DNA of 46,120 nt from Daejeonella sp. H1SJ63 (GTDB lineage Bacteria; Bacteroidota; Bacteroidia; Sphingobacteriales; Sphingobacteriaceae). Below, one piece after another: positions 30,716 to 45,993 of the stretch (its first letter is position 1; every line of letters begins with the position of its first letter). Below the pieces are notes generated by a model. That model was given only the letters and a program-made list of their open reading frames with translations, did not search any database and was not told the DNA's origin. A program made the translations under genes and the position numbers. The stretch covers positions 1 through 46,120 of the forward strand of contig NZ_JARKMZ010000030.1 in NCBI RefSeq assembly GCF_029360775.1. Reading direction: 5' to 3'.

Positions 30716-31849
30716 TTACTTTAACAAACTGATCAAACTCCCCGCAGCCTTAGCTGTTCTGATCAGATTGGAAGCAGTAAATTTCATAGCTGAGGCTAAA
30801 TCCTCAGGCTGATTACCAATAGCCAGAAGGACGTTAAAATACTTATTCATTTCCGGCTGATCAATCAGCGGTACTTTGCCGGCAAACCCGATTACAGGTA
30901 TACCTTTCTCCTTAGCATATTTCGCTACTGCAAAGGGACCTTTGCCCTGTAATGTCTGCTCATCCAGACTGCCTTCTCCGGTTATAAGAAGGTCAGCGTT
31001 TTTAAGACTTGCAGAAAAACCGGTTAGTTTCAGAAAATGTTCGGCTCCATTCAGCAATTCGGCATCCAATAAGGCATTCAGACTTGCAGCAACGCCTCCG
31101 GCTGCACCTCCATGAACAATTTCATTCATTCTCTTTCCATTGAGCTTAAAAACACAATCAGAAAGTTTTGCCAGTGCCGCATCCAGAACAGGCACATCTT
31201 CGGGTCGGGCACCTTTCTGCGGACCAAAAACTGCTGCTGCACCATTTGATCCCAGCAAAAGATTGTCCACATCACAAAGCACCGTGATTCTGCAATCAAA
31301 TATTCTCTGATCTATTTCTGAAAGATCAACAGAGTTTAAATACTTTAAATTTTCGGATAGTGCATTGATGTGTTTACCATTCACATCCAGAAATTGTACA
31401 CCAAGGGCACTTAAAATCCCAATCCCACCATCAACCGTTGCTGATCCACCAAGACCAATTACAATAGATTTTACTCCTCTGTCAAGAGCATATCTGATCA
31501 ATTCACCTGTACCGAAAGAAGACGCTTTTAAGGGGTTTCTTTCATCTTCACGGAGAATCCGGATACCGGAAGCATCAGCCATTTCAATCACAGCAGTTTT
31601 GCCCTGATCTATGATACCCACAGGAGCTCTGATTATTCGGCCAAGAGGATCATGAACATTGTACTCATGCCATAAACCCTGGCATTTCTCTACGATCAGG
31701 CGACCTGTACCATCTCCGCCATCAGCAATAGGAAAACATTCAGTACTGCAATTCAGTCCACTGCGGATGAGCCCTTCACGGATTGCATCTGCACTTTCCT
31801 GTGCAGTCAGACTATTCTTAAAAGCATTTGGAGCAATCAGAATATGCAT
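30716..31849 (-). CDS. glxK: Glycerate kinase
   Basis: A 377-residue glycerate kinase of the GlxK/GarK family, which phosphorylates glycerate with ATP, usually giving 2-phosphoglycerate. Recognisable are IAPNAFKNSLTAQESADAI at the N-terminus, PIADGGDGTG, IGLGGSATVDGGIGILSALG, and LLITGEGSLDEQTLQGK. It is cytoplasmic. It is the last gene of the leftward catabolic run, one base after a RidA-like gene, and would send a C3 acid into lower glycolysis. With a 2-hydroxyacid dehydrogenase in the same run it suggests hydroxypyruvate or glyceraldehyde-derived glycerate as an intermediate. Confidence 0.93.
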   Translation of the reverse strand: MHILIAPNAFKNSLTAQESADAIREGLIRSGLNCSTECFPIADGGDGTGRLIVEKCQGLWHEYNVHDPLGRIIRAPVGIIDQGKTAVIEMADASGIRILREDERNPLKASSFGTGELIRYALDRGVKSIVIGLGGSATVDGGIGILSALGVQFLDVNGKHINALSENLKYLNSVDLSEIDQRIFDCRITVLCDVDNLLLGSNGAAAVFGPQKGARPEDVPVLDAALAKLSDCVFKLNGKRMNEIVHGGAAGGVAASLNALLDAELLNGAEHFLKLTGFSASLKNADLLITGEGSLDEQTLQGKGPFAVAKYAKEKGIPVIGFAGKVPLIDQPEMNKYFNVLLAIGNQPEDLASAMKFTASNLIRTAKAAGSLISLLK

Positions 31850-31850
31850 T

Positions 31851-32396
31851 TTATTGCTCTACTTCCACTACCATCTCGATTTCAACAGCCATACCTGCAG
31901 GTAATGCGTTCATACCCACAGCAGAACGGGCGTGTTTACCTTTTTCGCCAAAAACCGCAACCATCATGTCAGAGAAAGCATTTATTACCTTAGGCTGATC
32001 CTTAAATTCAGGTACAGACTGAACCATTCCCAATACTTTAACAATTCTTTTCACCTTGCTGAGATCACCAATTTCTGCTTTAAGACTCGACAATAAAGCG
32101 ATACCCGTTAAACGGGCAGCTTCCTGGCCCTGCTCCAGAGTAAGATCGGCTCCCAATGTTCCGGTAACGCGTCCACCTCCCGGCAATTCAGGTCCGTGTC
32201 CGGATGTGAACACCAGATTACCGGCACGCACAGTTTTAACATAATTAGCCATTGGTGCACTCGGTGCAGATAAGGTAATATTTAACTCTTTCAAACGCTT
32301 ATCAAAGTCAATGGTTTCTGCCTTCTTTTCTTCCTGTGCAGGTTTACATGCGAACAGAGCTACAGCGATGAATGATAAAATAAAATACTTTTTCAT
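31851..32396 (-). CDS. RidA-family lipoprotein, copy 1
   Basis: A 181-residue exported RidA (YjgF/YER057c/UK114) protein. A lipoprotein signal with lipobox LFAC (Cys17) and a short charged linker precede a complete RidA domain with GNLVFTSGHGPELPGG, EAARLTGIALLSSLKAEIGDL, and the C-terminal HARSAVGMNALPAGMAVE, which supplies the conserved arginine that holds the substrate carboxylate. Cytoplasmic RidA hydrolyses reactive enamines/imines released by PLP enzymes. Here the domain is probably on the periplasmic side. It is one base from glycerate kinase and a tandem paralogue of the next gene. Confidence 0.88.
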   Translation of the reverse strand: MKKYFILSFIAVALFACKPAQEEKKAETIDFDKRLKELNITLSAPSAPMANYVKTVRAGNLVFTSGHGPELPGGGRVTGTLGADLTLEQGQEAARLTGIALLSSLKAEIGDLSKVKRIVKVLGMVQSVPEFKDQPKVINAFSDMMVAVFGEKGKHARSAVGMNALPAGMAVEIEMVVEVEQ

Positions 32397-32440
32397 GATG
32401 TTAATTTTAGGATTAATTTAAAGAAACAGGCTATATAAAA

Positions 32441-32487
32441 TTAATGCTGATCAGCTAAATCACAAAGAGAAAGCAGATCAGCATTAA
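32441..32487. repeat. 12-bp perfect inverted repeat between the ridA genes
   Basis: TTAATGCTGATC (32441-32452) and GATCAGCATTAA (32476-32487) are exactly complementary with a 23-nt spacer. It sits in the 114-nt gap between the two RidA genes. On the minus strand the stem is followed by TTTTATA, so it could act as a weak terminator or a stabilising 3' end for the upstream part of the transcript. Confidence 0.55.
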
Positions 32488-32510
32488 ACATTCAGCTAAG
32501 GAAAAAATTC

Positions 32511-33074
32511 TTATTCTTCCACCTCAACGATCATCTCGATCTCTACAGCGATATTCCCTGGTAATGCAACCATACCCACAGCAGAACGTGCATGCTTTCC
32601 TTTTTCGCCAAATACCGCCACCATCATGTCAGAAAATGCATTCATTACTTTAGGCTGATCCTTAAATTCAGGAGTAGACTGCACCATTCCAAGAACTTTA
32701 ACCACTCTTTTCACTTTACTTAAATCACCAATTTCCTTTTTAAGGCTTGATAATAAAGCGATACCGGTTAAACGGGCAGCTTCCTGACCCTGCTCAATGG
32801 TAAGGTCGCCACCAACTACTCCCTGTAAGGTTCCGCCTTCAGGTTTATCCGGACCATGACCAGAAGTGTAAACCAGATTACCAACACGTACAGTTTTCAC
32901 AAAGTTGGCAGTTGGCACAGATGGTTCTACCAGTTGAATATTTAACTCCTTCAAACGTGCCTCTATGTCAACAGCAGGTGCAGCAGCAGTTTCCTGTTTT
33001 GCTGAATCTTCTTTTTTAGGACTGCAGCTAACTAAAGCGATTGACAGAAGGAATAATAAAGAGTACTTTTTCAT
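32511..33074 (-). CDS. RidA-family lipoprotein, copy 2
   Basis: A 187-residue paralogue of the preceding RidA lipoprotein. The signal ends in lipobox LVSC (Cys17), followed by an alanine/acid-rich linker and a full RidA domain: GNLVYTSGHGPDKPEGG, EAARLTGIALLSSLKKEIGDL and HARSAVGMVALPGNIAVE with the conserved arginine. The two copies are very similar along the domain but differ in linker and several loops, so this is an old tandem duplication rather than an assembly repeat. It starts 21 nt after the 2-hydroxyacid dehydrogenase stop. Confidence 0.88.
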   Translation of the reverse strand: MKKYSLLFLLSIALVSCSPKKEDSAKQETAAAPAVDIEARLKELNIQLVEPSVPTANFVKTVRVGNLVYTSGHGPDKPEGGTLQGVVGGDLTIEQGQEAARLTGIALLSSLKKEIGDLSKVKRVVKVLGMVQSTPEFKDQPKVMNAFSDMMVAVFGEKGKHARSAVGMVALPGNIAVEIEMIVEVEE

Positions 33075-33095
33075 AATTGTTTAATTTTTAAATTG

Positions 33096-34055
33096 TTACT
33101 TGTTTACAATATTGACTGGATTTCCATTCAGGAATGAAGATAAATTATTTTCTGCAATTCCCATCAATCTGGCTCTGGCTTCTTTCGTTGCCCAGGCAAT
33201 ATGAGGGGTAATCAGGCAGTTTTTTGCTTTGAACAAAGGATTGTTTTCTGAAGGCGGTTCAACCGAAAGCACATCGATTCCGGCACCGGCAATTACCCCG
33301 GCATTCAGTGCATCAGCAAGATCCTGATCAACCATCAGCGGACCTCTGGATGTATTCAGAAAGAATGCTGTTTTCTTCATCAATTTTAAGGACTCCTTAT
33401 TAATCATTCCCTGAGTTTCCGGAAATAAAGGACAGTGAATACTTACCACATCAGAGTCTGTAAGCAATTCATTCAAACCTGCCCATCTGAAATTCTTGCG
33501 ATGCGACTGATCGCTCTGCCTTCTGGAGTATGCAATTACATTCATTCCGAAAGCTGCAGCAACATCAGCCACTTTTTGCCCGATCATTCCAAAGCCAATT
33601 ATACCAATATTTTTATCTGCGAGCTCAACCAATGGATGATTCCAATAACAAAAATCAGGCGAAGCAGCCCATCCGCCATCAAATACCGAGTCGCTATGAC
33701 TTTGAACATGCTGACATAATTCGAGAAGAAGGGCAAATGTCATCTGTACTACCGAAGCAGTTCCATATCCCGGCACATTGGCAACAAGAATTCCTTTCTT
33801 TTTAGCATAGTCAACATCAACCACATTATAACCTGTGGCCAGTACCCCTATATATTTCAGATCAGGAAGATGCTCCAAAATGTTTTCCCTGAGCGGCGTC
33901 TTATTGGTAAATACAATCTCAGCACCCCGGCAACGTTCCAGAATCTGACTTTCGGGTGTCCTGTCATGAACCTGCAGTTCACCATACTGCTTTATCCCCT
34001 CCCAGTTAAGATCTCCGGGATTTAAAGTATAACCGTCTAATACAACTAATTTCAT
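33096..34055 (-). CDS. D-2-hydroxyacid dehydrogenase (glycerate/hydroxypyruvate type)
   Basis: A 319-residue NAD(P)-dependent dehydrogenase that interconverts 2-keto and D-2-hydroxy acids. The NAD loop is IGIIGFGMIGQKVAD (about 148-162). The catalytic arginine is in NTSRGPLMVDQ, the glutamate in DVLSVEPP and the histidine in TPHIAWATKEA. The N-terminal GVLATGYNVVDVDYA resembles glycerate dehydrogenase/hydroxypyruvate reductase. It is cytoplasmic. With glycerate kinase downstream, reduction of hydroxypyruvate to glycerate is the simplest reading, but substrate range in this family is broad. Confidence 0.87.
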   Translation of the reverse strand: MKLVVLDGYTLNPGDLNWEGIKQYGELQVHDRTPESQILERCRGAEIVFTNKTPLRENILEHLPDLKYIGVLATGYNVVDVDYAKKKGILVANVPGYGTASVVQMTFALLLELCQHVQSHSDSVFDGGWAASPDFCYWNHPLVELADKNIGIIGFGMIGQKVADVAAAFGMNVIAYSRRQSDQSHRKNFRWAGLNELLTDSDVVSIHCPLFPETQGMINKESLKLMKKTAFFLNTSRGPLMVDQDLADALNAGVIAGAGIDVLSVEPPSENNPLFKAKNCLITPHIAWATKEARARLMGIAENNLSSFLNGNPVNIVNK

Positions 34056-34085
34056 TCTGTAAATATTTGTTCCCTTTTTAAATTC

Positions 34086-34997
34086 TTAAACTCTTGACCA
34101 GGCCAGGTTCAATACCCGCTTTGCATTGGCAATTACAATATCAGAATCTTCATCGCCGAAAGGTTTCACTTCAAAACTTACCACCGGAGGATTTTCTGTA
34201 TTCAGGAATCCGATCTGTAAAAGAACCCTGAGGTATGCCACCACTTCATCAACATCATTTTCGCCTCCCGGAAATCCAAAACGAGGGTGAACATCCCCAT
34301 AGGCCGGCATATCAGGACTCTTAACTACGCAATTACCAATATGAGCATGTACAATATAATCCTTGACCGGAAGTATCGATTCCTCTATGGTCTCATGAAT
34401 CAAAGGTATATGACTGAGATCAACCATTAAACCAAAGTGATCATGTGTCTTTCTTATTTCTTTGGCATAACGCAAGGCAAGATCTGCCGGACCAATCAGA
34501 CTTCTCTTGTCAACATCATAATCGAATACTTCCAGTGCAATTTTCAGATCACCTTTACTTTTTGCATAAGCACAAATCTCATTGGTTGATTTTACAAGAG
34601 CCTGAAAAGCTTCTTCCTTCCTGCTTTCATCATAGTTACCACTTAAAAATGCAAAACTGAAGGCTCCAATCTCGTATGCTTCGTCGATGCCTTCTTTAAG
34701 ATTATTTAACGCTTTCTGACGCTCTTCTTCAACCAGGCTATTGATATTCATTCCTGTGGTCAGCAGTCTCGGCTGAGCACCATAGGCTACGGTCATATGA
34801 GAACTTTCAAGCATTTTTTTTACTGCAGCACGTTCCTCAGGATCTTTAACAGTAGTAATTTCAATGGCACTGAAATAATCGTCTACGGCAATTTTACGGA
34901 TAGTCTCCACAACCGGGCCTTCTCCTTTAATCGTTGCCGGATATGCCATGAAGTGAACCAAACCCACTCTCATGTATTTACATAATGCTTCGTTCAT
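34086..34997 (-). CDS. Sugar phosphate isomerase/epimerase family protein
   Basis: A 303-residue xylose-isomerase-like TIM barrel. Landmarks include VGLVHFMAYPATIKGEG at the N-terminus, IALEVFDYDVDKRSL with a metal-ligand glutamate, LMVDLSHIPL, VHAHIGNCVV and VSFEVKPFGDED with a late glutamate. This metal set is that of ketose 3-epimerase/isomerase enzymes. There is no signal peptide, so it works in the cytoplasm with the KDPG-type aldolase (32 nt away). It probably isomerises or epimerises the imported acid or sugar. The exact reaction is unknown. Confidence 0.8.
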   Translation of the reverse strand: MNEALCKYMRVGLVHFMAYPATIKGEGPVVETIRKIAVDDYFSAIEITTVKDPEERAAVKKMLESSHMTVAYGAQPRLLTTGMNINSLVEEERQKALNNLKEGIDEAYEIGAFSFAFLSGNYDESRKEEAFQALVKSTNEICAYAKSKGDLKIALEVFDYDVDKRSLIGPADLALRYAKEIRKTHDHFGLMVDLSHIPLIHETIEESILPVKDYIVHAHIGNCVVKSPDMPAYGDVHPRFGFPGGENDVDEVVAYLRVLLQIGFLNTENPPVVSFEVKPFGDEDSDIVIANAKRVLNLAWSRV

Positions 34998-35029
34998 ATT
35001 GATAAATGTATAATCGTATTTTCTTCTGT

Positions 35030-35695
35030 TTACAAACTCTCCCTGATTGCCCTGATCAAATTCAAAGCACGGCCCGACTCGGCAGTCAGCTCATCGTATA
35101 ATTTATTTTCAATTACATTTTTGGTGATCATCTTACTACCGCCAACTGCACAAACCCCAACCCTGAACCAGCTGCGAAGATTAGCCTCATTGAGTTCAAT
35201 ACCACCGGTTGGCATGAAAACAATATCTGTAAACAAAGCCTGAACAGCCTCAATGTAAGAGGGTCCGAGAGTATTGGCCGGAAAAAGTTTGACAATCTTT
35301 GAACCACAGGCCTCGGCCCGAATAATCTCACTCGGAGTCATACACCCCGGCACACAGAGAAGATTATGCTTATCGGATAATTCGATCACAGATTCAAGAA
35401 TCCCCGGGCAAACCAAAAACTCTGCCCCTTCATCAATATAGGCCTGCGCTGATTCCGGATTCTTAATGGTGCCAATTCCAAGACGCATTCCCGGCATTTC
35501 TGCATCACAGGCTTTACGCATCTCCTTAAAATTCTTCATTGCCTTTTCACCACGGTCAGCATATTCGGTTGTTCTGATCCCCCCATTATAAAGGGCCCTC
35601 ATTAATTCTATACTTACCCCGGCATCTGCAGCATAATACAGTGGAACAATCCCTTGTTCATTCATGAGCACCGATAGCTCTGATTTCTTATTCAT
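35030..35695 (-). CDS. KDPG/KHG-type class I aldolase
   Basis: A 221-residue aldolase of the 2-dehydro-3-deoxy-phosphogluconate/4-hydroxy-2-oxoglutarate family. The Schiff-base lysine is in SKIVKLFPANTLG, the general-base glutamate in GIRTTEYADRG, and the pyruvate-binding region in VFMPTGGIEL. It cleaves 2-keto-3-deoxy acids to pyruvate plus an aldehyde. The DgaF aldolase of the glucosaminate pathway belongs to this family and also accompanies a SelA-like ammonia-lyase. No KDG kinase is in the window, so an unphosphorylated substrate is possible. Cytoplasmic. Confidence 0.88.
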   Translation of the reverse strand: MNKKSELSVLMNEQGIVPLYYAADAGVSIELMRALYNGGIRTTEYADRGEKAMKNFKEMRKACDAEMPGMRLGIGTIKNPESAQAYIDEGAEFLVCPGILESVIELSDKHNLLCVPGCMTPSEIIRAEACGSKIVKLFPANTLGPSYIEAVQALFTDIVFMPTGGIELNEANLRSWFRVGVCAVGGSKMITKNVIENKLYDELTAESGRALNLIRAIRESL

Positions 35696-35713
35696 CTGTT
35701 TAATCCCTTTTGT

Positions 35714-36142
35714 TTATAGTTTATATCCCTGCCGTGCAAGTAATTTCCAATTGCCCTGTTTTTTATACCAGACCATCACATTACCAAATCGCAAGGGCAG
35801 AGGATTACCATCGCGTGTAGCACTGGCAACAACGATATGTCTGACAATAGCATGCTTACCGGTAATTTTTATGGTCTGACCTTCCGGATCAATCGATTTA
35901 AAAAAAGTAGGCCCTCCCAGAACAGCTTTAATAAATGCCGCCTTATCCTGAATAATACCGCCCGAATGTCCGAAAGTGAGCTCAGCCAGGGTAAGGTCAT
36001 CCAAGGCTGAACTGTCTCTGTTTACAATAGCCCGGTTCAGGTCTTTAACCAATTGTGCAACACGGTTTTCTTTTTTCGTCTGTGCCTGAATACCACTGCT
36101 GATCAGCAGAAAAACAGTTCCTATTAATAGTGATTTAAGCAT
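35714..36142 (-). CDS. Exported NTF2-like (SnoaL/DUF4440) protein
   Basis: A 142-residue protein with a Sec signal (KSLLIGTVFLLISSGIQAQ) followed by an NTF2-like fold: an early helix VAQLVKDLNRAIVNRDSSAL, LTFGHSGG, and C-terminal strands FGNVMVWYKKQGNWKLLARQ. Proteins of this type often bind small ligands or act as simple lyases/isomerases, but none can be assigned here. The start at 36142 is chosen because it gives a proper signal peptide and falls 4 nt after the symporter stop; upstream in-frame starts would lie inside that gene. Confidence 0.8.
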   Translation of the reverse strand: MLKSLLIGTVFLLISSGIQAQTKKENRVAQLVKDLNRAIVNRDSSALDDLTLAELTFGHSGGIIQDKAAFIKAVLGGPTFFKSIDPEGQTIKITGKHAIVRHIVVASATRDGNPLPLRFGNVMVWYKKQGNWKLLARQGYKL

Positions 36143-36146
36143 CTTA

Positions 36147-37247
36147 TTAAATTTTAGTTTTAGTGTCATCTTCTTCCTCAACAGGTTTATTCTTCCAGTA
36201 TGAAGCAAGAATTGATCCGCTGATATTCATCATCGGACCATAAATCATTGGAGCTAATCCAACCGTTCCGAGCTTCCCCATTCCATGAGCCAAACCTTTT
36301 GAAAGCCCGGCATTCTGCATACCCACATTAATTGCAATGGTGCGGCAATCTTTTTCATTCATTCCAAAAAGTCTTGCCGACCAGTAACCCAGTGTATAGC
36401 CCATGATATTATGTATTAAGACCAGTAAGATGAGTAAAGGTCCCACTGTCAACAAACTTTCTCTGCCTACAGCAGTGACAATGATGATGATAAATGCAAT
36501 GCCAAACATTGATACAACCGGCATAACCGAGTTAATCCACTTCATTCTGTCTTTCATCAATTCATTGATTCCGATGGCCAGTGCAATTGGTATGATTACC
36601 ATTTTCATAATATCCAACATCATGGCAATAACATCGATCTCAATAAAGGATCCTCCGAGTAACTTCATCATCAATGGAGTCAGAAATGGAGCTAATAAAG
36701 TAGCTATCGATGTTAAAGTGATGGAAAGTGCAAGATTGGCCTTTGCCAGATATGAAATCACATTCGCGGCAACAGCATTGGGAGCGCAGCCGATAAGTAT
36801 CATCCCCGCTGCAATTTCAGGCGAGAAATTGCTCAGACTTGCCAATGCAAATCCAAGTAAGGGCATAATTGTAAAATGGCTCAATATTCCTACAAACACC
36901 CCTTTAGGCGCTTTAAACACCCCAAGAAAATCCTTATAGCTCATGGTTATTCCCATACCGAACATGATCAGCTGAATAAGCGGAGTAATCAGTCCCGATA
37001 GTTTATACCCATTAATCTCAATGAAATAATGCGGAAAGATTAATGCCGTTGATACTACCCCGATAATCATCATCGGATAAGCAAATCCCTTTAAAGCCGA
37101 AATTCCTCTGACCCCCAGAGCCACAGATACGATTCCACCAATAAGAAATGGCTCGGCTACAGCCTGGTTATTGATCAGATAAAAAGTCAGGGACGCCAGC
37201 AGACATGCGGCTCCCAGGCCCATTACAATTTTGAAAATTGGTTTCAT
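36147..37247 (-). CDS. BASS-family sodium symporter
   Basis: A 366-residue inner-membrane transporter of the bile acid:sodium symporter (BASS/BART) superfamily with about ten hydrophobic segments. Family cues are IQLIMFGMGITMSYKDFLGV early, GMILIGCAPNAVAANVISYL (the PNAxxxN crossover) in the middle, and INVGMQNAGLSKGLA late. Bacterial members import organic acids such as pantoate, ketoacids and bile acids with sodium. Being between genes for exported enzymes (upstream) and mostly cytoplasmic enzymes (downstream), it is the probable importer of the pathway intermediate. Confidence 0.87.
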   Translation of the reverse strand: MKPIFKIVMGLGAACLLASLTFYLINNQAVAEPFLIGGIVSVALGVRGISALKGFAYPMMIIGVVSTALIFPHYFIEINGYKLSGLITPLIQLIMFGMGITMSYKDFLGVFKAPKGVFVGILSHFTIMPLLGFALASLSNFSPEIAAGMILIGCAPNAVAANVISYLAKANLALSITLTSIATLLAPFLTPLMMKLLGGSFIEIDVIAMMLDIMKMVIIPIALAIGINELMKDRMKWINSVMPVVSMFGIAFIIIIVTAVGRESLLTVGPLLILLVLIHNIMGYTLGYWSARLFGMNEKDCRTIAINVGMQNAGLSKGLAHGMGKLGTVGLAPMIYGPMMNISGSILASYWKNKPVEEEDDTKTKI

Positions 37248-37264
37248 AGGTTCCGTTTAAATTC

Positions 37265-38188
37265 TTACCAGGTTCTTTTAGACATAAACTGATCAAGCTG
37301 GGCACGACTGATCTTTCGCTCTGAAGGATTTCTGTCCAGCCACTTCAGATACTCAACTCTGATCGGCTCAGTCCATTGGGTATCTACCTGTTCAGCTTTA
37401 TAAATTCCTTTTCGAATCATCTCATGACCGAAACGATCTTTAGATGCAATAAACTCTGCGGTAGAAACAACCAGTTCTGCCATATGTGCCGGTATGAAAA
37501 CTACTCCTGCCCTTCCGGCTATTACCAGATCACCGGGCAGCACTATTGCAGTTCCGATTGTAATGGGTGTATTCAAACCCATTAAAACTACTCCCTGTAA
37601 AAACTGCGGAGCAAAATCTCTGACAAATGCATTAAACCCTTTAATTTCTGCAAGCCCGTCTACATCACGTGCAAATCCATCAAACACAACTCCGTTACCT
37701 GAATTCTTATAGATCACATTCCCAAGGTTATCACCCATCAGCGAGCCTACCCTGCCCTTATTATCGGCAACATATACATCACCTTTAGTGAGCATATTTA
37801 TCGGCCAGTGTAAATGCCTTCCCTTACGGCCTTCTTTTGCCGCACGATCAACTATGTTCTTCTCAACATCCGGGCGGATTGGCATGAATTGAGCCGTTAA
37901 TGCCCTGCCTACAACTTTAACATCCTCATGCAGAATTTTCCAGTTGCGCTCATACTGATAAAGATATCCTTCATTATTCAGGATCTGCCAGGCCTCTTCA
38001 ATACCTATAACTTTAGCCCTTTCCAGCAGATCATCTGAAATACGCGGACGTCCGTCTTCAAAGCGTTCACCCTTCCAGGCAGAGGTTAGAAATATCAGTT
38101 CATCCTTCGGAATGGTCTGAGCTACCAATGATTTAGCTGAAAGTGAAAAACAAAAAATAAATAGAAATAGATAAAATCTATAATTCAT
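37265..38188 (-). CDS. Exported RraA-like (HMG aldolase family) protein
   Basis: A 307-residue protein with a Sec signal (YRFYLFLFIFCFSLSAKSLVAQ cut near VAQ; about 24 residues) and an RraA/4-hydroxy-4-methyl-2-oxoglutarate aldolase domain. The domain shows LMGDNLGNVIYKNSGNGVVF and the FARDVDGL motif with the Arg-Asp pair used by the aldolases to bind substrate and metal, then GDLVIAGRAGVVFIP. Typical RraA-like proteins are about 160-230 residues and cytoplasmic. The N-terminal extension of about 80 residues, the export signal and a C-terminal tail are unusual. It may act as a lyase or decarboxylase on a periplasmic acid. Confidence 0.82.
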   Translation of the reverse strand: MNYRFYLFLFIFCFSLSAKSLVAQTIPKDELIFLTSAWKGERFEDGRPRISDDLLERAKVIGIEEAWQILNNEGYLYQYERNWKILHEDVKVVGRALTAQFMPIRPDVEKNIVDRAAKEGRKGRHLHWPINMLTKGDVYVADNKGRVGSLMGDNLGNVIYKNSGNGVVFDGFARDVDGLAEIKGFNAFVRDFAPQFLQGVVLMGLNTPITIGTAIVLPGDLVIAGRAGVVFIPAHMAELVVSTAEFIASKDRFGHEMIRKGIYKAEQVDTQWTEPIRVEYLKWLDRNPSERKISRAQLDQFMSKRTW

Positions 38189-38247: not shown

Positions 38248-39201
38248 TTAGGATTTTTTAGGAAATTTCCAGATTCCCAAAGCATTTTTACCCATAATCA
38301 GATCAAGATCCTGATCGGTATAGAAATCACAATATTTCTCCATGAATTCAAGTTCCTTATCCATAGGAAGCTCCCATCTCGGGAATGGATATCCTGTACC
38401 CCATATAATTTGCTTTGCGCCGAACTCCTCATAAATTGCTTTATAAAATGGAAGAGTATCTTCGTATGGATATTTCTTAATTTCCGACATCTCGTAAGGT
38501 TCTGAATTACTGATCCAGACATTTTTGAAACGGCTGAGTTTAAACATTTTTTTAAACTCCGGCCAGCAGTCGGCAGCTTTCAGATCAGGTTTACCTGCAT
38601 GGTCAATAACAATTTTCACTCCCGGAAACCGCTCTGCCATATCTTCCAGCATGGGCATCTGATGAGGCAGTATATAGTAGTTAAAACAAAGTCCCAGCTT
38701 CTCGGCTTCTTTCCACAATGGATAATGAGCAGGTGAATTCAGCCAGGTTTCTTTGGGGTGATAAATGGGACTGAAACGCATTCCCTGAAAGCCATGTTCG
38801 TTAACCCAATATCTCAGATTATCTACAATTTTCGGATCATGAGGATTCAATAGGCCATGAGCAACAAAATGATTCGGATAAGTTTTCAGGCAATGTGCCT
38901 TGTATGAATTATCCCATCCGTAATAACGCGGATTAATTAAGACCCCGTAGCTTATATTAAAATCCTTCATTTGCTTAACCTGATTTTCTATAGGTGCCTC
39001 TATGCTGGCTTTAGCATCAGGATTTTCAGGATGCTTAAATGGGAAACGGGGATCAAAGTTCCATGTTTCCACATGCGTATCAATGACCAGACGTTTCTTC
39101 TTAAATTTCTCAGGCATTGATGCAAATACTGAAGCATGCGGCTCAATCATGCCCATTAATGGCAAAACTGCCATCCCCTTGATAATGTCTCTGCGTTTCA
39201 T
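38248..39201 (-). CDS. Exported TIM-barrel amidohydrolase (amidohydrolase-2 family)
   Basis: A 317-residue protein with a Tat-like signal (KRRDIIKGMAVLPLMGM) and an amidohydrolase-2 barrel related to lactonases and decarboxylases. The metal site is non-standard: the N-terminal DxHxH reads DTHVETW (Glu for the second His), and the late Asp motif (GSDYP in most members) reads GTGYP. Conserved VIDHAGKPD retains a histidine. This belongs to a subgroup with the WGTGYP signature, so it may use a different metal arrangement or have lost hydrolysis. The chemistry is therefore open. It sits 28 nt after a PLP lyase gene. Confidence 0.82.
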   Translation of the reverse strand: MKRRDIIKGMAVLPLMGMIEPHASVFASMPEKFKKKRLVIDTHVETWNFDPRFPFKHPENPDAKASIEAPIENQVKQMKDFNISYGVLINPRYYGWDNSYKAHCLKTYPNHFVAHGLLNPHDPKIVDNLRYWVNEHGFQGMRFSPIYHPKETWLNSPAHYPLWKEAEKLGLCFNYYILPHQMPMLEDMAERFPGVKIVIDHAGKPDLKAADCWPEFKKMFKLSRFKNVWISNSEPYEMSEIKKYPYEDTLPFYKAIYEEFGAKQIIWGTGYPFPRWELPMDKELEFMEKYCDFYTDQDLDLIMGKNALGIWKFPKKS

Positions 39202-39229
39202 AGGTTTTCTTTTAAATCTTTATCCTGTT

Positions 39230-40870
39230 TTAAGTTGCGAGCGGTTGACCTCCCGGGATCATGACCTTCTGCCTCGGAAGTTTAGTTGTATTCCGTTTAG
39301 CTGTAAACTTCGCTGTCAGGTATTCTCCCATATGGATATCACCGGATATTATGTCTCCCTTAACCTTACCAGAAAAAAGATAAATGATAATATTTCCAAC
39401 GATTGGAATGGTACTCCTGATTTTTACCTCATCGCCATCGATTGTACCTGCCATATTTTTGGTATCCATATCACCTTTATGAGTCCCCTGAATCCAGTTA
39501 CCATCCTGCTCAATCACAAAAGAATGCTGACTGGTACTTAATGCATATTGCACCTCTACATCCCAGCGCCCGCTGAGATTAGCAAGCGGTGCAGCCATTT
39601 CAGGTTTAGGGCTACGCTTTCTGGACAATACCTCATATAATCGGTCTGCCACTATTTTCTCTTCACCGGACTGCATGTGCCCCGGGGTAATCTGTATTGA
39701 AGTAGTTCCATCAGCTTCATCACGATTACCCAAAGCAATTCTTGGTTTGCTCCTGCCTACTTCCTCAGCAATCTCGTATCCGGTAACTGGGTACTTTTCC
39801 GGATTCCAGATGATATGAAGAACCGGATATTTATTGTTCAGATTTGTGGGTTCAACAATCCTGGTACTCATCCCACTGATTGTTGATACCTTCTTTGAAA
39901 TCACATCCAGCCAGCCAAGCCATCTCTTCCATTCCCCTTCATGATCACGTACAAGCCAATTCTCAACTGCAGCCACCATACCAACGATCTCATCACGATC
40001 CAATTTGTTGTCGCGGCCCGGACCGTGATGGGGGGCACTTGCCTGCCAGGCAGCAAGAAGAATGTTTTTATTGCCGAGCATTAGTCCGGCCGACTGCGGT
40101 CCGCGAATAGTTTTACCACCACTGTAAGCAACAACATCTGCACCTCTTTTTAAATGAACAGGAGGTATTGTAAGACTTTCTGCTGCGGCATCTATCAAAA
40201 TTGGAATATTCTTAGGTTTAGCGATAGAAGCAATTACCTCCAGTGATAACGGCTGACCGGTATCTGAGGCAGCTCCGGGAGTACCTGAAGTAAGGTATAT
40301 CATCGCTGTTTTAGAATTAATTGCTTTTTCAAGCTCTGCTGCTGTAGCCACAGTGACAATCTTCACCCCGATATTTCTGACAGCATGATCATAATGCTGA
40401 CGGGAGTATTTTGGAATAATAACTTCTGTCTTCTCAAATCCGGTAAGATCAGGAATACGTATCAATCTTTCAGGACTGCCTCCGGTAACGCATGCCGCTG
40501 TAATATGCTTTACACCAGCCGCACAACCTGAAGAAACCATTCCCCATTCTGTTTTCGTCAATTCTGCAAGACGTTTTCCAACCGCCTCTGCAAGTTCATC
40601 AAGCTGCACAAAATTATTGCTGGCTGCCTCCAATGCCTCTTTTACTTTAGGAAGTTTAATCGACCCTCCGATTATTGTATATGAACCGCGGCAATTGATG
40701 ATGGGTTCCACACCCATTGATCTGTAAATATTAGTCTCAGCTAAAAAAGAATTTAAAGTTGTTTCTGCTTCTCCGGCCTGCCCTGCTGCCAACTCAGCTC
40801 CTTCAGAAGAAAGAACATTTCCAACCACCGGAAGTAATGCAAGGCCTTTGATCAAATTTCTGCGCTTCAT
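39230..40870 (-). CDS. Tat-exported SelA/DgaE-like PLP enzyme, copy 1
   Basis: A 546-residue PLP enzyme of fold type I. A Tat signal with RRNLIK leads into the catalytic domain (about 45-425), related to SelA and D-glucosaminate-6-phosphate ammonia-lyase (DgaE): EWGMVSSGCAAGVKHITAAC, LIDAAAESL with Asp227 for the PLP pyridine, and the Schiff-base Lys253 in YSGGKTIRGPQSAG. A separate beta-rich C-terminal domain (about 431-526) has NLSGRWDVEV, GNWIQGTHKGDM, MAGTIDGDEVKI and SGDIHMGEYLTAKFTAKR, a repeat pattern seen in other secreted hydrolases. Likely reaction: elimination of ammonia from a 2-amino-3-hydroxy acid. Not selA: no selenium genes are nearby. Confidence 0.85.
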   Translation of the reverse strand: MKRRNLIKGLALLPVVGNVLSSEGAELAAGQAGEAETTLNSFLAETNIYRSMGVEPIINCRGSYTIIGGSIKLPKVKEALEAASNNFVQLDELAEAVGKRLAELTKTEWGMVSSGCAAGVKHITAACVTGGSPERLIRIPDLTGFEKTEVIIPKYSRQHYDHAVRNIGVKIVTVATAAELEKAINSKTAMIYLTSGTPGAASDTGQPLSLEVIASIAKPKNIPILIDAAAESLTIPPVHLKRGADVVAYSGGKTIRGPQSAGLMLGNKNILLAAWQASAPHHGPGRDNKLDRDEIVGMVAAVENWLVRDHEGEWKRWLGWLDVISKKVSTISGMSTRIVEPTNLNNKYPVLHIIWNPEKYPVTGYEIAEEVGRSKPRIALGNRDEADGTTSIQITPGHMQSGEEKIVADRLYEVLSRKRSPKPEMAAPLANLSGRWDVEVQYALSTSQHSFVIEQDGNWIQGTHKGDMDTKNMAGTIDGDEVKIRSTIPIVGNIIIYLFSGKVKGDIISGDIHMGEYLTAKFTAKRNTTKLPRQKVMIPGGQPLAT

Positions 40871-40881
40871 GAAATTATTGA

Positions 40882-42150
40882 TTATTGATTGTATTTATTT
40901 GCTGACAATCCATTCAGATCCCAGATAATTCTTCCTCCTCTGATGGTTAGCTCTGCTTCTAACTTCTTATCGCCTTCGATACGATTGCCTCCAGAATCTA
41001 CAAATCCGAATTTCCCGGTCAGCACATTCAGAACTGCAATATCTGCAACCGAGCCCTCTGATAAATTCCCAAGATCTTCCCTTTTAATAGACTTAGCAGC
41101 ATTCCAGCTTCCGCGGGCAATAACATCCGGCAGACTCATCCCGATATTTAAGAATTTAGACATCACATTCAGTATGTTTTTCATTCCGGAATTCATGCTG
41201 AAACTATGCTCATCTGTACCGAATGAATTTGGCCATAGACCCTGCTGAAATGCCGGAATAGCCTGATTAAACCAAAACCCAACACCACCATGACCGACAT
41301 CAAACAGAACTCCTCTTTTTTGAGCTTCCAGAACAAAAGGTCTGACTTTTCCCTGTTCATCAACAAGCGGCATCCGCTCTGAAACATTCTCAAAAGAATG
41401 GGTGATGATATCTCCGGGACGCATGTGATCCAGCTGATCTTTCAAAGAATACTCTGGCATATGACATTCAACAAAAAGTGGCTTGCCTGCAAGCTTTGCA
41501 GTTTCTGATGCCCTTTCAAACGGAATCCAGCTTTTACCTTTATAATGCCCTACACGGGTACCAACAATCAGGTCAGGATATTGTTTAATGGTTTCCAGAG
41601 TCTTTTGAACATCCAGTGTATTCATATCGGGCTCAAATGCCGAACCAGCACTAAAGCCTGTTTCAAAAATATTGATCCATGCCAGCACACGTGTTAAAGA
41701 ATTATCAACCACTTTAGCTTTGAACTCAGGGAAAGTCCTCCAGCCTGTTGTACCTGCATCCACTACAGTAGTGATCCCCGAACGGGGGCCAAATGCATCA
41801 GGAAGCTGGCTTCCCGGACCATCTGCAAAACCCGGCTTACTCCCCGCAAAAACATGGGTATGAATATTAATCAATCCGGGAGCAACGATCAAACCACTTA
41901 CATTAACTACCTTCTTTGCAGAAGATTCAGGAATTCCTTTGATAATTTTTGCAATTTTCCCTGCTTTTATGGCAACATCCATCTGTGCATCAATATTATT
42001 CCCGGCATCAATCACTCTGCCGCCTTTAAGTAACAGATCATATTCCTGAGCACGTAATATGAATGGACTACTCAGTAATAAAAGCAGCACGGATGCAGCT
42101 TGCAGAGAAAGCTGTACCCGATTCCTTAACTCAACAAAGAATCTGCTCAT
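40882..42150 (-). CDS. Exported COG3964-type amidohydrolase/deacetylase, copy 1
   Basis: A 422-residue metal-dependent hydrolase with an N-terminal signal (SLQAASVLLLLLSSPFILRA) and an amidohydrolase barrel. Metal-site landmarks are INIHTHVFAG, VECHMPEY, IITHSFENVSER and the late Asp in FGTDEHSF. The strand-4 position normally holding the carbamylated lysine (VGIK in its paralogue) reads VGTR, an arginine. Related proteins cleave N- or O-acyl groups from small acids and were once called dihydroorotases. The start at 42150 is preferred to 42189 because it brings the signal to the N-terminus. It ends 11 nt before a PLP lyase gene. Confidence 0.83.
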   Translation of the reverse strand: MSRFFVELRNRVQLSLQAASVLLLLLSSPFILRAQEYDLLLKGGRVIDAGNNIDAQMDVAIKAGKIAKIIKGIPESSAKKVVNVSGLIVAPGLINIHTHVFAGSKPGFADGPGSQLPDAFGPRSGITTVVDAGTTGWRTFPEFKAKVVDNSLTRVLAWINIFETGFSAGSAFEPDMNTLDVQKTLETIKQYPDLIVGTRVGHYKGKSWIPFERASETAKLAGKPLFVECHMPEYSLKDQLDHMRPGDIITHSFENVSERMPLVDEQGKVRPFVLEAQKRGVLFDVGHGGVGFWFNQAIPAFQQGLWPNSFGTDEHSFSMNSGMKNILNVMSKFLNIGMSLPDVIARGSWNAAKSIKREDLGNLSEGSVADIAVLNVLTGKFGFVDSGGNRIEGDKKLEAELTIRGGRIIWDLNGLSANKYNQ

Positions 42151-42207
42151 AATCTCATAATTTGTTGTTTGTGTATTATTCTCTTCCATAATCCTTCATT
42201 CAAAAAT

Positions 42208-43491
42208 TCAGTCTTTCCAGGGCTGTCCGCTGATTCCATTCAGATCCCACATAATTTTTCCTGCACGGAGAGTCAGTTCTGCCTCCAGTTTTTTTGTTCC
42301 GATAACACTCACTTTTTTAACATCCGTAAATCCGAATTTACCCTCTCGGAGATTAAACACTGCAATATCAGCTTCAGCACCAACACTCAAATGCCCCAGA
42401 TCAGTACGCTTAATGACTCTGGCAGGAGCCCATGTAGAACGTTCAATCACATCCTGAAGCCGCATTCCCAATGCAAGAAATTTCGACATCACATTCGTCA
42501 TATCCTTCATTCCTGCATTCATACTCAAATCATGTAGATCTGAGCTGATCACATCAGGCAAAAAGCCCTGCTTAAATGCGGGAATTGCCTGCGACCAGGA
42601 GAATGCCCCGCCACCATGACCAACATCAAAAACAACCCCGCGTTTCTGTGCTTCGAATATAAAAGGCTTAAGTTTCCTGGTTTTCTCATCCACAATAGAT
42701 TCACGACCGGCACTTATCTCAGAGAAGGTATGGGTAAAAATATCTCCCGGACGGAAGTGCTTCAAAAAAAGAGATTCAATAGAATTTGTTGGGATATGCT
42801 CACCAAAATCTACCATAATTGGCACATCAGCAAGCTTTCCCGACTCTATTGCTTTATCTACAGATGTAAAACCACCCCAGTAATGTGCCGATTTTATACC
42901 TACCAGAATTTCAGGAAATTGCTTTTTGATCATGTAGGCATTCATTTCGGGATTCATGTCGGTAATATCCTGCTCTTCAAAACGGCCGATCATACCGTTT
43001 CCGATAACGTTCAAAAATGCCAGAATCCTGGTCTGGGATTTATCTATAGACTGTGCCTTGAAAGTGCGGAAATTCCTCCAGCCTGAGGTACCTGCATCTA
43101 CCATGGTTGTTACACCGGCGCGGAAAGAAAAAGCATCCGCATTCTGGCTCCGGTTAGAATTAGCTACAGAAGTACTATACTTATCTGTGCCCTGAAAAAC
43201 ATGCACATGCATATCAATAATTCCGGGGGTAACATATAAGCCGCTTACATCAATCGCTTTTTTTGCGGTATTTGCAGGTATATTCTGAGCTACCCTGACA
43301 ATTTTATTGCCGCTGATGGCAATATCCATAACCGCATCAATTTTATTCCTGGGATCTATGACATGCCCGCCCTTTAAAATCAAATCAAGTTCCTGCGCTC
43401 TTGCAGAAAGGTATACAGAAAGGAATAACAAAGCCAGGGCAAGCCTGCGGTTAATCTTGTTAATTATATAAAAACTCTTCGGTGATCTCAT
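42208..43491 (-). CDS. Exported COG3964-type amidohydrolase/deacetylase, copy 2
   Basis: A 427-residue paralogue of the next gene. A Sec signal (RRLALALLFLSVYLSARAQ) precedes the amidohydrolase barrel. Its metal site is complete: HVH (His95, His97), Lys200 in LVGIKSAHY as the expected carbamylated bridging lysine, His232, His254 and Asp318 in ISSDLHDL. It retains AFSFRAGVTTMVDAGTSGWR, typical of COG3964. Members deacylate small N- or O-acyl compounds and commonly lie next to SelA-like PLP enzymes, as here. In this pathway it probably removes an acetyl or similar group in the periplasm. Confidence 0.87.
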   Translation of the reverse strand: MRSPKSFYIINKINRRLALALLFLSVYLSARAQELDLILKGGHVIDPRNKIDAVMDIAISGNKIVRVAQNIPANTAKKAIDVSGLYVTPGIIDMHVHVFQGTDKYSTSVANSNRSQNADAFSFRAGVTTMVDAGTSGWRNFRTFKAQSIDKSQTRILAFLNVIGNGMIGRFEEQDITDMNPEMNAYMIKKQFPEILVGIKSAHYWGGFTSVDKAIESGKLADVPIMVDFGEHIPTNSIESLFLKHFRPGDIFTHTFSEISAGRESIVDEKTRKLKPFIFEAQKRGVVFDVGHGGGAFSWSQAIPAFKQGFLPDVISSDLHDLSMNAGMKDMTNVMSKFLALGMRLQDVIERSTWAPARVIKRTDLGHLSVGAEADIAVFNLREGKFGFTDVKKVSVIGTKKLEAELTLRAGKIMWDLNGISGQPWKD

Positions 43492-43527
43492 ATCAATCTT
43501 TTATCATTCAAATTATACAGGCCTGAA

Positions 43528-44262
43528 TTACTCAAATTTCAAAATCCCGAAAAACTTAGGAAGATGGAACTGCGGCTTATCATTCTTTATTTCATTCCAG
43601 GTAATGTAGTGAGGATTGGAGTTGATCTCTGCAATCTTGTAAAAATTCGCCCTCCATGCTACTCCGGGTTTAGGACGAACAACATTAGTGTATTTTTCAA
43701 GCATACTGAGTGGTATTTTGAATGACATTGTCCAGGTTACAGGATCAGTGATCTCAGGATCTACCACCTTTGGCAAACTGGCTTTAATCTCTATCTGTTC
43801 AATATCAGCCACCGTTGGCCGGTTCTTACTATGATGAAGCAGAGGAGTTCCTCCGCAATTGATTTCCAGGTTGAAATAATTTGCCGGCCTGTCAGCCTCC
43901 GGAGAAAAGAAGAATTCTACAGCTGAATCTTCCCATACTTTCCCGTTAATCTTTTGAGTGATGCTTCGTACATAACGATCTTTCACCTGGTAAATAACAT
44001 AAATGAAATTATCATCATATGTCATCTTTGCCTGTGCGTCTGGTTTAAATGCAGGCACTTTGCCCATATAATTCTGAATCTTTACTGATTTCATCTTTTT
44101 CCAGCCTGCACTTTTCCATCCATCATTTACACTGATTGGATTTATAATTTTTTTGACTCTGTAAACAGATAACTCAGAAAGATTACCGGTACCGCCATCC
44201 TGAGCAAACAGATTGCCGGCAGACAGGATTAAAGCAAGAAGAAATAGTTTTAAGACTCTCAT
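43528..44262 (-). CDS. Exported CBM9-like sugar-binding protein
   Basis: A 244-residue protein with a Sec signal (LKLFLLALILSAGNLFAQ) and a carbohydrate-binding family 9-like beta-sandwich: GWKSAGWKKMKSVKIQNYMG, YDDNFIYVIYQVKDRYV, SAVEFFFSPEADRPANYF and VAWRANFYKIAEINSNPH. Such domains, free-standing in Bacteroidota, bind sugars or glycoside ends. The start at 44262 gives a proper signal peptide; an in-frame ATG at 44298 overlaps the upstream terminator hairpin. It may capture the substrate or tether the exported enzymes to it. Confidence 0.82.
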   Translation of the reverse strand: MRVLKLFLLALILSAGNLFAQDGGTGNLSELSVYRVKKIINPISVNDGWKSAGWKKMKSVKIQNYMGKVPAFKPDAQAKMTYDDNFIYVIYQVKDRYVRSITQKINGKVWEDSAVEFFFSPEADRPANYFNLEINCGGTPLLHHSKNRPTVADIEQIEIKASLPKVVDPEITDPVTWTMSFKIPLSMLEKYTNVVRPKPGVAWRANFYKIAEINSNPHYITWNEIKNDKPQFHLPKFFGILKFE

Positions 44263-44296
44263 GGATATTTTATGATTTTTAAACGTATTGTAATGC

Positions 44297-44340
44297 AAAA
44301 AAGAAATCAGCTGTCACCATTTGGAGATGACAGCTGATTT
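44297..44340 (-). terminator. Strong terminator inside the catabolic gene run
   Basis: A perfect 13-bp stem, AAATCAGCTGTCA (44304-44316) with TGACAGCTGATTT (44328-44340), encloses an 11-nt loop. Read leftward the stem is followed within 1 nt by six T (44302-44297). It sits 12 nt past the stop of the first PLP gene and should separate its transcript from the following fourteen genes, or set a lower level for them by read-through. Confidence 0.88.
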
Positions 44341-44352
44341 AAAATTATCAGA

Positions 44353-45993
44353 TCAGGTTGCCAAAGGCGGACCTGCAGGGATCTGAACCCTTTTTCTTAC
44401 CGGACTTGTCTTGCTTCGAACCGCAGTAAATGTAGCTGTGCGGTATTCACCTAAATGAATATCTCCCGACATTGTATCGCCATTTATTGTGCCGAAAAAC
44501 TGATAATCAATATCATCGGCAATAACCTTTACAGTACTCTCCAGTTTTACATTATTTCCATCAATGGTACCATTGATGGTTCTGTCCTGAAAATCAGACT
44601 TATGCGTCCCCTGAATCCAGTTACCATCCTGCTGCAGATTCATGGCCTGTTGGCTGGTACTGCTGAAAAATTTAATACTGAAGTCCCAGCTGCCGCTAAG
44701 GTTAGCTGCCGGACTTGTCATTTCAGCCTTCGGACTGCGTTTCTTTGAAAGTACTTCATGTAAACGCGTTGCAATTATCTTTTCTTCCCCGGCCTGGATT
44801 TGTCCGGTTGTAATACTGATCGTACTCAATCCGTCTTTATCACCACGGTCTGCCAAAGCAATTCTAGGCTTGTTTCTTCCCAGTTCTTCCGCAACATCAA
44901 ATCCATTAACATGAAACTTTGAAGGATCCCAGCTTACATAGAGCACAGGTGATTTATTTGAAAGACCGGCAGGTTCATAAACCGTTGTTTTAACCCCATC
45001 AATGGATGCCAGTTTTTTAGAGATTGTATCCAGCCAGCCTAACCATTTTTTCCAGTCGGCAGCATGATCACGTTGTACCCAGTCTTCAACAGCAGCCATC
45101 ATTCCGATCATTTCTTCTCTTCCTACCTTATTATCACGACCGGGGCCATGGTGCGGAGAACTTGCCTGCCATGCCGACATCAGAATAGATTTATTGCCAA
45201 GCATTAATCCTGCACACTGCGGTCCGCAGATAGCTTTTCCACCACTGTATGCCACAACATCAGCGCCTCTTTTCAGATGAACAGGAGGTATTGTCAGATT
45301 CTGGGCGGCCACATCAATCAGTACAGGAATATTTTTAGGTTTTGCAATCGCAGAAATAGCTTCAAGTGAAAGCGGTTGTCCGGTTTCAGACTGTGCCCCT
45401 GCAGTGAGGTAAATCATCGCGGTTTTAGGATTGATTGCCTTTTCGAGTTCTTCAGGTGTAGTAACATGAACAATCTTAACCCCGATATTCCGGATAGAAT
45501 GGTCATAAGCATTACGTGAATATCTGGGAATGATTACCTCTGATTTATCAAAACCAGTCAGATCAGGAATACGAATCAGTTTTTCAGGATTCCCACCGGT
45601 AACACAGGCAGCAGTAATGTGCTTCAATCCACCGGCACATCCGGCAGTAACTATTCCCCACTCAGCACCGGTAAGATCTGCCAGTCTCTGACCGATACCA
45701 TCTGCCAGTTCATCATACTGAACAAAATTATGTGCAGCAGCTTCCATGGCTTCCCGCACAGCCTGACGTTCGATTGAACCTCCGATAATGGTATAAGTAC
45801 CCATACAGTTAATAACAGGCTCAACACCAATTCTCCGGAAAATATTGGTTTCTGCCATAAAAGAGGCTGCAGTGGTTACAGACTCTGCTGCTGAAGAAGC
45901 AGCAATAGGAGCCGCTGCAAGCGATTCCTTATTAAGAACAGCTCCGGCAAGCGGCAGCATCGCTATCCCTTTGATTACATTTCTACGTTTCAT
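44353..45993 (-). CDS. Tat-exported SelA/DgaE-like PLP enzyme, copy 2
   Basis: A 546-residue paralogue of the PLP enzyme at 39230-40870, the first gene of the leftward run in this window. It has a Tat signal with RRNVIK and an alanine-rich mature start. The catalytic domain includes EWGIVTAGCAGGLKHITAAC, LIDVAAQNL with the PLP aspartate (227), and Lys253 in YSGGKAICGPQCAG. The C-terminal beta domain (about 431-527) has GSWDFSIKF, GNWIQGTHKSDF, INGTIDGNNVKL and SGDIHLGEYRTATFTA. Two active-site-proximal changes from copy 1 are cysteines (AICGPQC for TIRGPQS), which may shift specificity. Likely a 2-amino-3-hydroxy acid ammonia-lyase. Confidence 0.85.
   Translation of the reverse strand: MKRRNVIKGIAMLPLAGAVLNKESLAAAPIAASSAAESVTTAASFMAETNIFRRIGVEPVINCMGTYTIIGGSIERQAVREAMEAAAHNFVQYDELADGIGQRLADLTGAEWGIVTAGCAGGLKHITAACVTGGNPEKLIRIPDLTGFDKSEVIIPRYSRNAYDHSIRNIGVKIVHVTTPEELEKAINPKTAMIYLTAGAQSETGQPLSLEAISAIAKPKNIPVLIDVAAQNLTIPPVHLKRGADVVAYSGGKAICGPQCAGLMLGNKSILMSAWQASSPHHGPGRDNKVGREEMIGMMAAVEDWVQRDHAADWKKWLGWLDTISKKLASIDGVKTTVYEPAGLSNKSPVLYVSWDPSKFHVNGFDVAEELGRNKPRIALADRGDKDGLSTISITTGQIQAGEEKIIATRLHEVLSKKRSPKAEMTSPAANLSGSWDFSIKFFSSTSQQAMNLQQDGNWIQGTHKSDFQDRTINGTIDGNNVKLESTVKVIADDIDYQFFGTINGDTMSGDIHLGEYRTATFTAVRSKTSPVRKRVQIPAGPPLAT

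Follow-up and report, generated by a model that had tools for sequence, protein, structure and literature searches.

Two described routes for the use of amino-aldonates, dga and ong, both of which deaminate their substrate inside the cell, are the closest known counterparts of a fifteen-gene run (positions 30716 to 45993) in a 46,120-nucleotide stretch of DNA from Daejeonella sp. H1SJ63 (contig NZ_JARKMZ010000030.1; hereafter the window). The dga operon (DgaABCDEF) serves D-glucosaminate use in Salmonella and combines a SelA-like fold-type I pyridoxal phosphate (PLP) ammonia-lyase with an aldolase for the keto-deoxy acid (PMC9529869). The ong genes of Pseudoalteromonas prydzensis belong to the oxidative chitin pathway, a cytoplasmic route acting on 2-acetamido-2-deoxy-gluconate; growth on GlcNAc1A fails if any one of the deacetylase, the PLP deaminase, RidA or the KDG kinase KdgK is missing (PMC9537276), and a structure of OngB has been reported (PMC12017989). 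PLP enzymes exported in folded form by twin-arginine translocation (Tat) are known as well, namely PvdN and PtaA of pseudomonads, so that Tat export of such enzymes is not unprecedented; these two, however, tailor a siderophore and stand outside any nutrient pathway (PMC6206403). For PvdN, Tat is reported to require the folded holoenzyme.

The window system would resemble dga and ong in its working and is a member of neither: deacetylase and PLP enzyme alike are of other families or subfamilies and, by prediction, exported. Like dga, it pairs a SelA-like PLP enzyme with a keto-deoxy-acid type aldolase; dga, in contrast, relies on import by a phosphotransferase system (PTS) and on a 6-phosphate substrate, whereas the window run is devoid of a PTS gene and its SelA-like enzymes carry export signals, score below the DgaE cut-offs and lack the His-162/163 pair and the Arg triad. 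With ong it would share deacetylation and PLP deamination, the use of a RidA (essential in ong), uptake of the TonB-dependent kind and 2-keto-3-deoxygluconate (PMC9537276). There, on the other hand, OngB is of D-aminoacylase type and OngC of fold-type III, both predicted to be cytoplasmic behind a transporter of the SSS family (PMC9537276), whereas the window holds COG3964 proteins and exported SelA-like families, with neither an ong-type deacetylase nor a fold-type III deaminase. Within the COG3964 family (NF006689), deacetylase 1 of the window aligns over most of its length to the solved relatives 8je0, 2ogj and 2ics; as points of difference, the window proteins are predicted to be exported, and 25 copies occur in one genome. 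Literature searches, with most subscription journals outside their coverage, found no exported nutrient pathway of this kind.

The fifteen open reading frames (ORFs), all of them present where the sequence-only reading had placed them, occupy the minus strand between 45993 and 30716, separated by gaps of -20 to 114 nt; ten products are called exported, one is a membrane protein (BASS) and four are cytoplasmic. Their family names, likewise first given from the sequence, were matched by Pfam and NCBIfam models, including two SelA-like and two COG3964 proteins. In the order of reading they are:

44353-45993, minus strand: SelA1, Tat-type exported SelA-like PLP enzyme, Lys253 in the column of Lys213 of D-glucosaminate-6-phosphate ammonia-lyase (DGL), C-terminal beta domain at about residues 434-526
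43528-44271, minus strand: CBM9-like secreted protein, PF16011 137 bits, Sec-type signal
42208-43491, minus strand: COG3964 deacetylase 1, Sec signal, NF006689 score 430.5 bits (cut-off 371), HVH at residues 95-97
40882-42150, minus strand: COG3964 deacetylase 2, Sec signal, NF006689 score 405.6 bits (cut-off 371), HTH at residues 97-99, alternative start at 42189
39230-40870, minus strand: SelA2, Tat-type exported SelA-like PLP enzyme
38248-39201, minus strand: Amidohydro_2 protein, Tat-type signal, Pfam 131 bits
37265-38188, minus strand: RraA-like protein, Sec signal, D-X20-RD motif
36147-37247, minus strand: BASS-family inner-membrane symporter, PF01758 127.4 bits against a cut-off of 24.3
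35714-36166, minus strand: DUF4440 (NTF2-like) protein, Sec signal, 59.9 bits
35030-35695, minus strand: KDPG/KHG-type aldolase, cytoplasmic, PF01081 113 bits against 27.8
34086-34997, minus strand: AP_endonuc_2 TIM barrel of isomerase/epimerase type, cytoplasmic, assigned by Pfam
33096-34055, minus strand: D-2-hydroxyacid dehydrogenase, cytoplasmic, assigned by family models
32511-33074, minus strand: RidA1, lipoprotein-type signal, Arg163 retained in the motif ARS (162-164)
31851-32396, minus strand: RidA2, lipoprotein-type signal with an atypical box, ARS at residues 156-158
30716-31849, minus strand: glycerate kinase, cytoplasmic, Pfam 417 bits, TIGR00045 391.5 bits against 168.45

The partition into ten exported products, one BASS symporter and four cytoplasmic proteins, proposed from the sequence, was borne out by the N-termini, which were judged by eye and with a hydropathy and twin-arginine script using hand-set thresholds. 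SelA1, SelA2 and the Amidohydro_2 protein start with MKRR in Tat-type fashion; the CBM9, COG3964, RraA-like and DUF4440 products bear Sec-type signals, and the two RidA proteins lipoprotein-type ones, the atypical LFAC box of RidA2 having been read by eye. No signal is seen on the aldolase, the TIM barrel, the 2-hydroxyacid dehydrogenase or the glycerate kinase. Predicted export signals are conserved gene by gene across relatives: among the Bacteroidota rows they occur on 83 of 90 SelA-like proteins (79 Tat-like), 96/101 COG3964, 36/41 RidA, 21/21 RraA (two of these being chimeric ORFs, in L043 and L044) and 12/12 DUF4440 proteins, and in none of the 16 rows of the four cytoplasmic families taken together. 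All 17 SelA-like proteins of the source genome start with MKRR, and TatC is encoded there. From these signals we infer that the enzymes in question are located outside the cytoplasm.

The window is the entire contig C24 of a 3.65-Mb genome in 56 contigs, and it leaves only 127 bp of sequence upstream of SelA1. The run, judged from synteny, is the distal part of a 25-gene TonB/SusCD nutrient locus, so that the earlier description of a fifteen-gene unit holds for the run itself and had to be corrected in its extent. In a genome of the same genus (G092) the locus is unbroken and on one strand, its 25 genes including all 15 window genes in order at 55-92% identity; upstream of these lie a sigma factor, FecR, SusC, SusD, an M19 dipeptidase, a COG3964 gene, a third SelA-like gene and three further COG3964 genes, of which SusC, SusD and M19 were confirmed by Pfam, and the sigma factor and FecR assigned by position and appearance. 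A second genome (G098) shows the same layout as far as its contig reaches, although its upstream part is two COG3964 genes shorter. In the source genome the ten upstream genes open contig C20, oriented to run into C24, with sigma factor, FecR, SusC, SusD and M19 all confirmed by Pfam. Sequence overlap between the C20 and C24 ends was looked for and not found; as these ends share no sequence, the adjacency of the two contigs rests on synteny. Adjacent SusC and SusD genes on the same strand are thus seen in G092 (L023) and G098 (L033), the source genome having its own pair on C20 with a probable link across the gap. The M19 dipeptidase at the locus head is Tat-type. The block SelA1-CBM9-COG3964-SelA2-Amidohydro_2 recurs in eight assemblies (L030, L031, L032, L033, L034, L042, L044 and L076), some cut by contig ends, with a single COG3964 gene rather than two in L031 and L032.

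On this basis we favour, with modest confidence, a two-compartment reading in which the locus degrades 2-amino-2-deoxy sugar acids in N-acylated form, for instance 2-acetamido-2-deoxy-gluconate or one of its epimers. SusCD would import the N-acylated acid, the Amidohydro_2 protein would probably open a lactone, and the COG3964 enzymes would strip the acyl group in the periplasm. The SelA-like enzymes, exported by Tat and already loaded with PLP, would then remove water, setting free a 2-enamine or 2-imine, which exported RidA would hydrolyse to a 2-keto-3-deoxy acid and ammonia. The BASS protein, the proposed importer of the 2-keto-3-deoxy acid, would move it inward, the KDPG-type aldolase would split it into pyruvate and an aldehyde. 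Through the TIM barrel, the dehydrogenase and glycerate kinase, the three-carbon fragment would then reach glycolysis in the form of phosphoglycerate. Such a set of four cytoplasmic genes would suit a keto acid whose cleavage yields, besides pyruvate, either a hydroxy-aldehyde of three carbons or tartronate semialdehyde, followed by glycerate and phosphoglycerate; this predicted glycerate branch is specific to this cluster. If the pathway is correct, a reactive enamine-forming step can be placed apart from the other PLP enzymes of the cell, RidA has a role beyond cytoplasmic damage control, and functions are predicted for many unassigned exported proteins (COG3964, RraA-like, DUF4440) of environmental Bacteroidota and some Acidobacteriota.

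The sequence of deacylation, deamination, enamine clearance, keto-acid import and aldol cleavage, as the sequence-only reading had drawn it, finds comparative support in Flagellimonas, where two loci (L090, L093) carry SusC, SusD, two unassigned genes, a GSDH-cytochrome c gene, gluconolactonase, COG3964, a SelA-like gene, RidA, RraA, DUF4440, BASS, a PfkB kinase and a KDPG-type aldolase in this order. A locus from a metagenome-assembled genome (L089) repeats the order from the dehydrogenase onward, and Sinomicrobium (L074) repeats it up to BASS, with kinase and aldolase absent. The L090 assignments are backed by Pfam and NCBIfam; its kinase scores best against the models for a KDPG-aldolase/sugar-kinase fusion and for KDG/KDGal kinase, all below cut-off. 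Co-occurrence of the genes had been named beforehand as a test, and the set proved collinear in relatives, its core recurring, with the signals on the same genes, in many Bacteroidota loci and on a plasmid of the acidobacterium Granulicella tundricola. The latter holds a receptor-type gene (our own reading), RraA, a short SelA-like gene, RidA, a long SelA-like gene, COG3964, a lactonase, an FAD/BBE oxidase and a beta-galactosidase; both SelA-like proteins, RidA and the lactonase have Tat-type starts, the oxidase has no signal. More tentatively, and somewhat less probable than the pathway as such, gene order may outline a full periplasmic route in Bacteroidota and Acidobacteriota, with 17 copies of the PLP enzyme in one 3.65-Mb genome: oxidation to a lactone with electrons passing to cytochrome c, lactone opening, N-deacetylation, PLP-dependent elimination of ammonia and enamine clearance by RidA. 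Acetate, ammonia and electrons would all be removed in the periplasm, so that only the 2-keto-3-deoxy acid would enter the cell; the reactive enamine that would be released after loss of a proton-donating histidine may explain why the enzymes are kept outside and paired with RidA.

This last point is bound up with the residues of the SelA-like enzymes. The closest structure to the SelA1 model is the D-glucosaminate-6-P ammonia-lyase 7lc0 (TMt 0.88), and the catalytic Lys column reads K in 124/124 aligned sequences. The first assignment as SelA/DgaE-like enzymes stands in its SelA-like part; membership in DgaE was rejected, as SelA1 (148.9/139.2 bits) and SelA2 (146.6/129.1 bits) stay below the cut-offs of the DgaE models (NF047797 cut-off 600) and lack both the His-162/163 pair and the phosphate-site Arg set. 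The HH pair of DGL is found in 0/17 sequences of the source genome and in 0/101 locus sequences; at the phosphate-site triad, Arg is missing from all 17 of the former and from 93 of the latter, the other 8 keeping one. With this triad lost, SelA1 and SelA2 should take an unphosphorylated substrate, and we would propose SelA1 as a 2-amino-2-deoxy-aldonate ammonia-lyase. The H163A mutant of DGL is described as still active yet releasing enamine (PMC9529869), and a transient near 293 nm has been seen for it; the SelA-like enzymes, in which the histidines are lost, may likewise release an enamine, and this would fit the exported RidA partners. The long SelA-like proteins have a C-terminal eight-stranded beta domain, absent from the short form.

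A survey of the source genome found 17 SelA-like proteins (nine long, eight short; ORF 7188-8429 of L015 is an M19 dipeptidase and outside this count) and 25 full-length COG3964 proteins, 24 of them over the cut-off. Within 10 kb of a SelA-like gene lie 21 of the 25 COG3964 genes (1.8 expected), 9/16 RidA genes (1.1 expected) and 7/17 SusD-like_2 places (1.2 expected; three of the 17 score below the family cut-off), where the expectation is that of random placement and tandem copies or duplicates are not independent. Six of 17 places of the GSDH (sugar dehydrogenase) type, read from coordinates, are equally close. The 18 PF01042 stretches count as 16 RidA genes, since three lie in one ORF. By homology, the distribution of the system is patchy: SelA-like matches at E ≤ 1e-30 occur in 14/101 genomes of the family (the long form being present in G068 and in five of nine listed genomes of the same genus), and at E ≤ 1e-80 in 8/395 phylum genomes sampled, three with the long form; copy numbers are lower bounds, at most 14 candidates per genome being scored in the family survey and at most 3 in the phylum survey. 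The neighbourhood set comprises 76 loci of long SelA-like relatives, many cut by contig ends and several per genome, of which 61 were grouped as Bacteroidota by their record titles; of these 61, 47 have COG3964 genes, 35 have RidA, 30 a GSDH-type dehydrogenase, 20 RraA and 17 BASS.

Several observations weigh against the two-compartment sugar-acid pathway. Outside Bacteroidota, where 15 loci come from Gemmatimonadota, Latescibacterota and Acidobacteriota, COG3964 occurs in 1 and RidA in 0 of the flanks examined; two (L071, L100) have no called SelA-like ORF, and 10 of the remaining 13 have no recognised signal on it. The association of COG3964 and RidA with SelA-like genes is not universal. 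The carboxylate-site Arg-226 of DGL is R in just 29/124 sequences, the scores fall far under the DgaE cut-offs, and a relative, Cap15 (8t7j), depends on O2 for its reaction. HH is preserved in two Rhizobium SelA-like proteins that nevertheless adjoin RidA; the rule that loss of His-163 implies a RidA neighbour is weakened by them, and His loss thus does not cleanly predict a RidA partner. The AlphaFold model of the TIM barrel is poor (mean pLDDT 42), and a sugar oxidase and a KDG kinase are missing from the window run. Finally, the M19 dipeptidase at the locus head and the six COG3964 copies that the locus has in the source genome point faintly to a substrate of amide or peptide-like nature.

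The last of these points leads to the best-surviving alternative, in which compartments and enzymes stay the same and the substrates are beta-hydroxy D-amino acids of the D-serine or D-threonine type, or their N-acyl or dipeptide forms, with the SelA-like proteins acting as periplasmic D-hydroxyamino-acid ammonia-lyases. The Tat-type M19 dipeptidase would suit such substrates, as would a gamma-glutamyl transpeptidase and M81 in a sister locus, and OngC also deaminates D-serine and D-threonine (PMC9537276); sister loci, however, hold sugar dehydrogenase, lactonase, KDG-type kinase and KDPG-type aldolase, and the cytoplasmic genes of the window are of sugar-acid type, so that we regard this alternative as unlikely.

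Less probable still is a periplasmic split of the keto acid, for which the RraA-like protein would be a metal-dependent pyruvate aldolase, BASS would import pyruvate or a small hydroxy acid, and the cytoplasmic aldolase would serve another branch. The D-X20-RD motif, which we take to mark pyruvate aldolases, is intact in the window protein, and RraA carries a signal in every row and often adjoins BASS. The alignment shows, on the other hand, that SelA-linked RraA proteins do not always have the first Asp of this motif, several sister loci having S, Q or A in its place while still keeping the gene, and in the Flagellimonas loci it is after BASS that kinase and KDPG-type aldolase follow.

An improbable third alternative has the SelA-like proteins run another PLP reaction, for instance an O2-dependent one like that of Cap15, in the modification or biosynthesis of a surface compound, with no elimination of ammonia. 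Cap15 is the second-best fold match of the SelA1 model, and rhizobial long-form relatives stand beside genes of phosphonate and phospholipid type; the best match, however, is an ammonia-lyase (7lc0), and the genomic context is one of SusCD import loci, deacetylase, RidA and aldolase. That the signals were over-read and the enzymes are cytoplasmic is highly improbable, for although the calls come from a simple hydropathy and motif test with thresholds set by hand, signals are kept per gene over many genomes and absent from the four cytoplasmic genes in the same test, the PLP and Amidohydro_2 proteins bear Tat-type and most others Sec-type signals, and TatC is present.

Returning to the remaining proteins of the proposed pathway, the aldolase reaches 149.2 bits with the KDPG aldolase model TIGR01182, just under its cut-off of 156.05, and the BASS protein 226 bits with the PanS equivalog model, below the cut-off of 400. 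The Amidohydro_2 protein matches the sulfomuconolactone hydrolase and fuconolactonase models far below cut-off; together with neighbours found in the PDB, which were counted as a basis, our best guess is a hydrolase of lactonase type. RidA1 and RidA2 score 50.5 and 55.4 bits with PF01042, over the cut-off of 27.3, and 34.1 and 38.3 bits with TIGR00004, not reaching 106.25. The Arg of their ARS motif is presumably the catalytic arginine; that it is kept was judged from the 26 of 51 alignment rows that were read, where an Arg is followed by S, T or A, the column being offset by one between two subgroups. Homologues of the TIM barrel at E ≤ 1e-20 occur in 1/296 sampled Bacteroidota genomes, namely its own. 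Identification of the TIM barrel as hydroxypyruvate isomerase was considered and found no support, there being no such model among its NCBIfam matches and no PDB sequence match, besides the low model confidence.

The COG3964 proteins fall into subtypes in an alignment of 124 rows that holds each window protein twice: a Glu-Cys(-His) motif near residue 228 is seen in 42/124 rows, and Arg replaces the common Lys200 in 21/124, mostly in this locus and its orthologues, also in L049; deacetylase 2 has both the Arg at Lys200 and the ECH motif. SelA-like and COG3964 paralogues of the source genome (L009-L020) form several separate loci with SusCD and sigma/anti-sigma genes, of which L013 adds a sulfatase, an enolase-type dehydratase, a DGOK kinase and a KDPG-type aldolase, and L010 adds the gamma-glutamyl transpeptidase and M81. 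On the Sinorhizobium plasmids L108 and L109, SelA-like relatives of the long form have genes for phosphoenolpyruvate mutase and CDP-alcohol phosphatidyltransferase in their vicinity, and given these neighbours the SelA-like family may also have a biosynthetic role. In L043 and L044 the pair Amidohydro_2-RraA is repeated, and the inner 'RraA' ORF includes a stretch resembling the C-terminal beta domain of SelA, as would be seen where a tandem duplication is joined. A 480-aa exported protein (X473; 15607-17049 of L014, and relatives) lies between RidA and RraA and gives no Pfam match at 1e-5; a weak GSDH match falls on X473 at C21:586024. Following the run on the same strand of the window, at 27074-30557, are phytoene-desaturase-like, DoxX-like and D-Ala-D-Ala carboxypeptidase-like genes (named by eye), whose adjacency is kept in G092.

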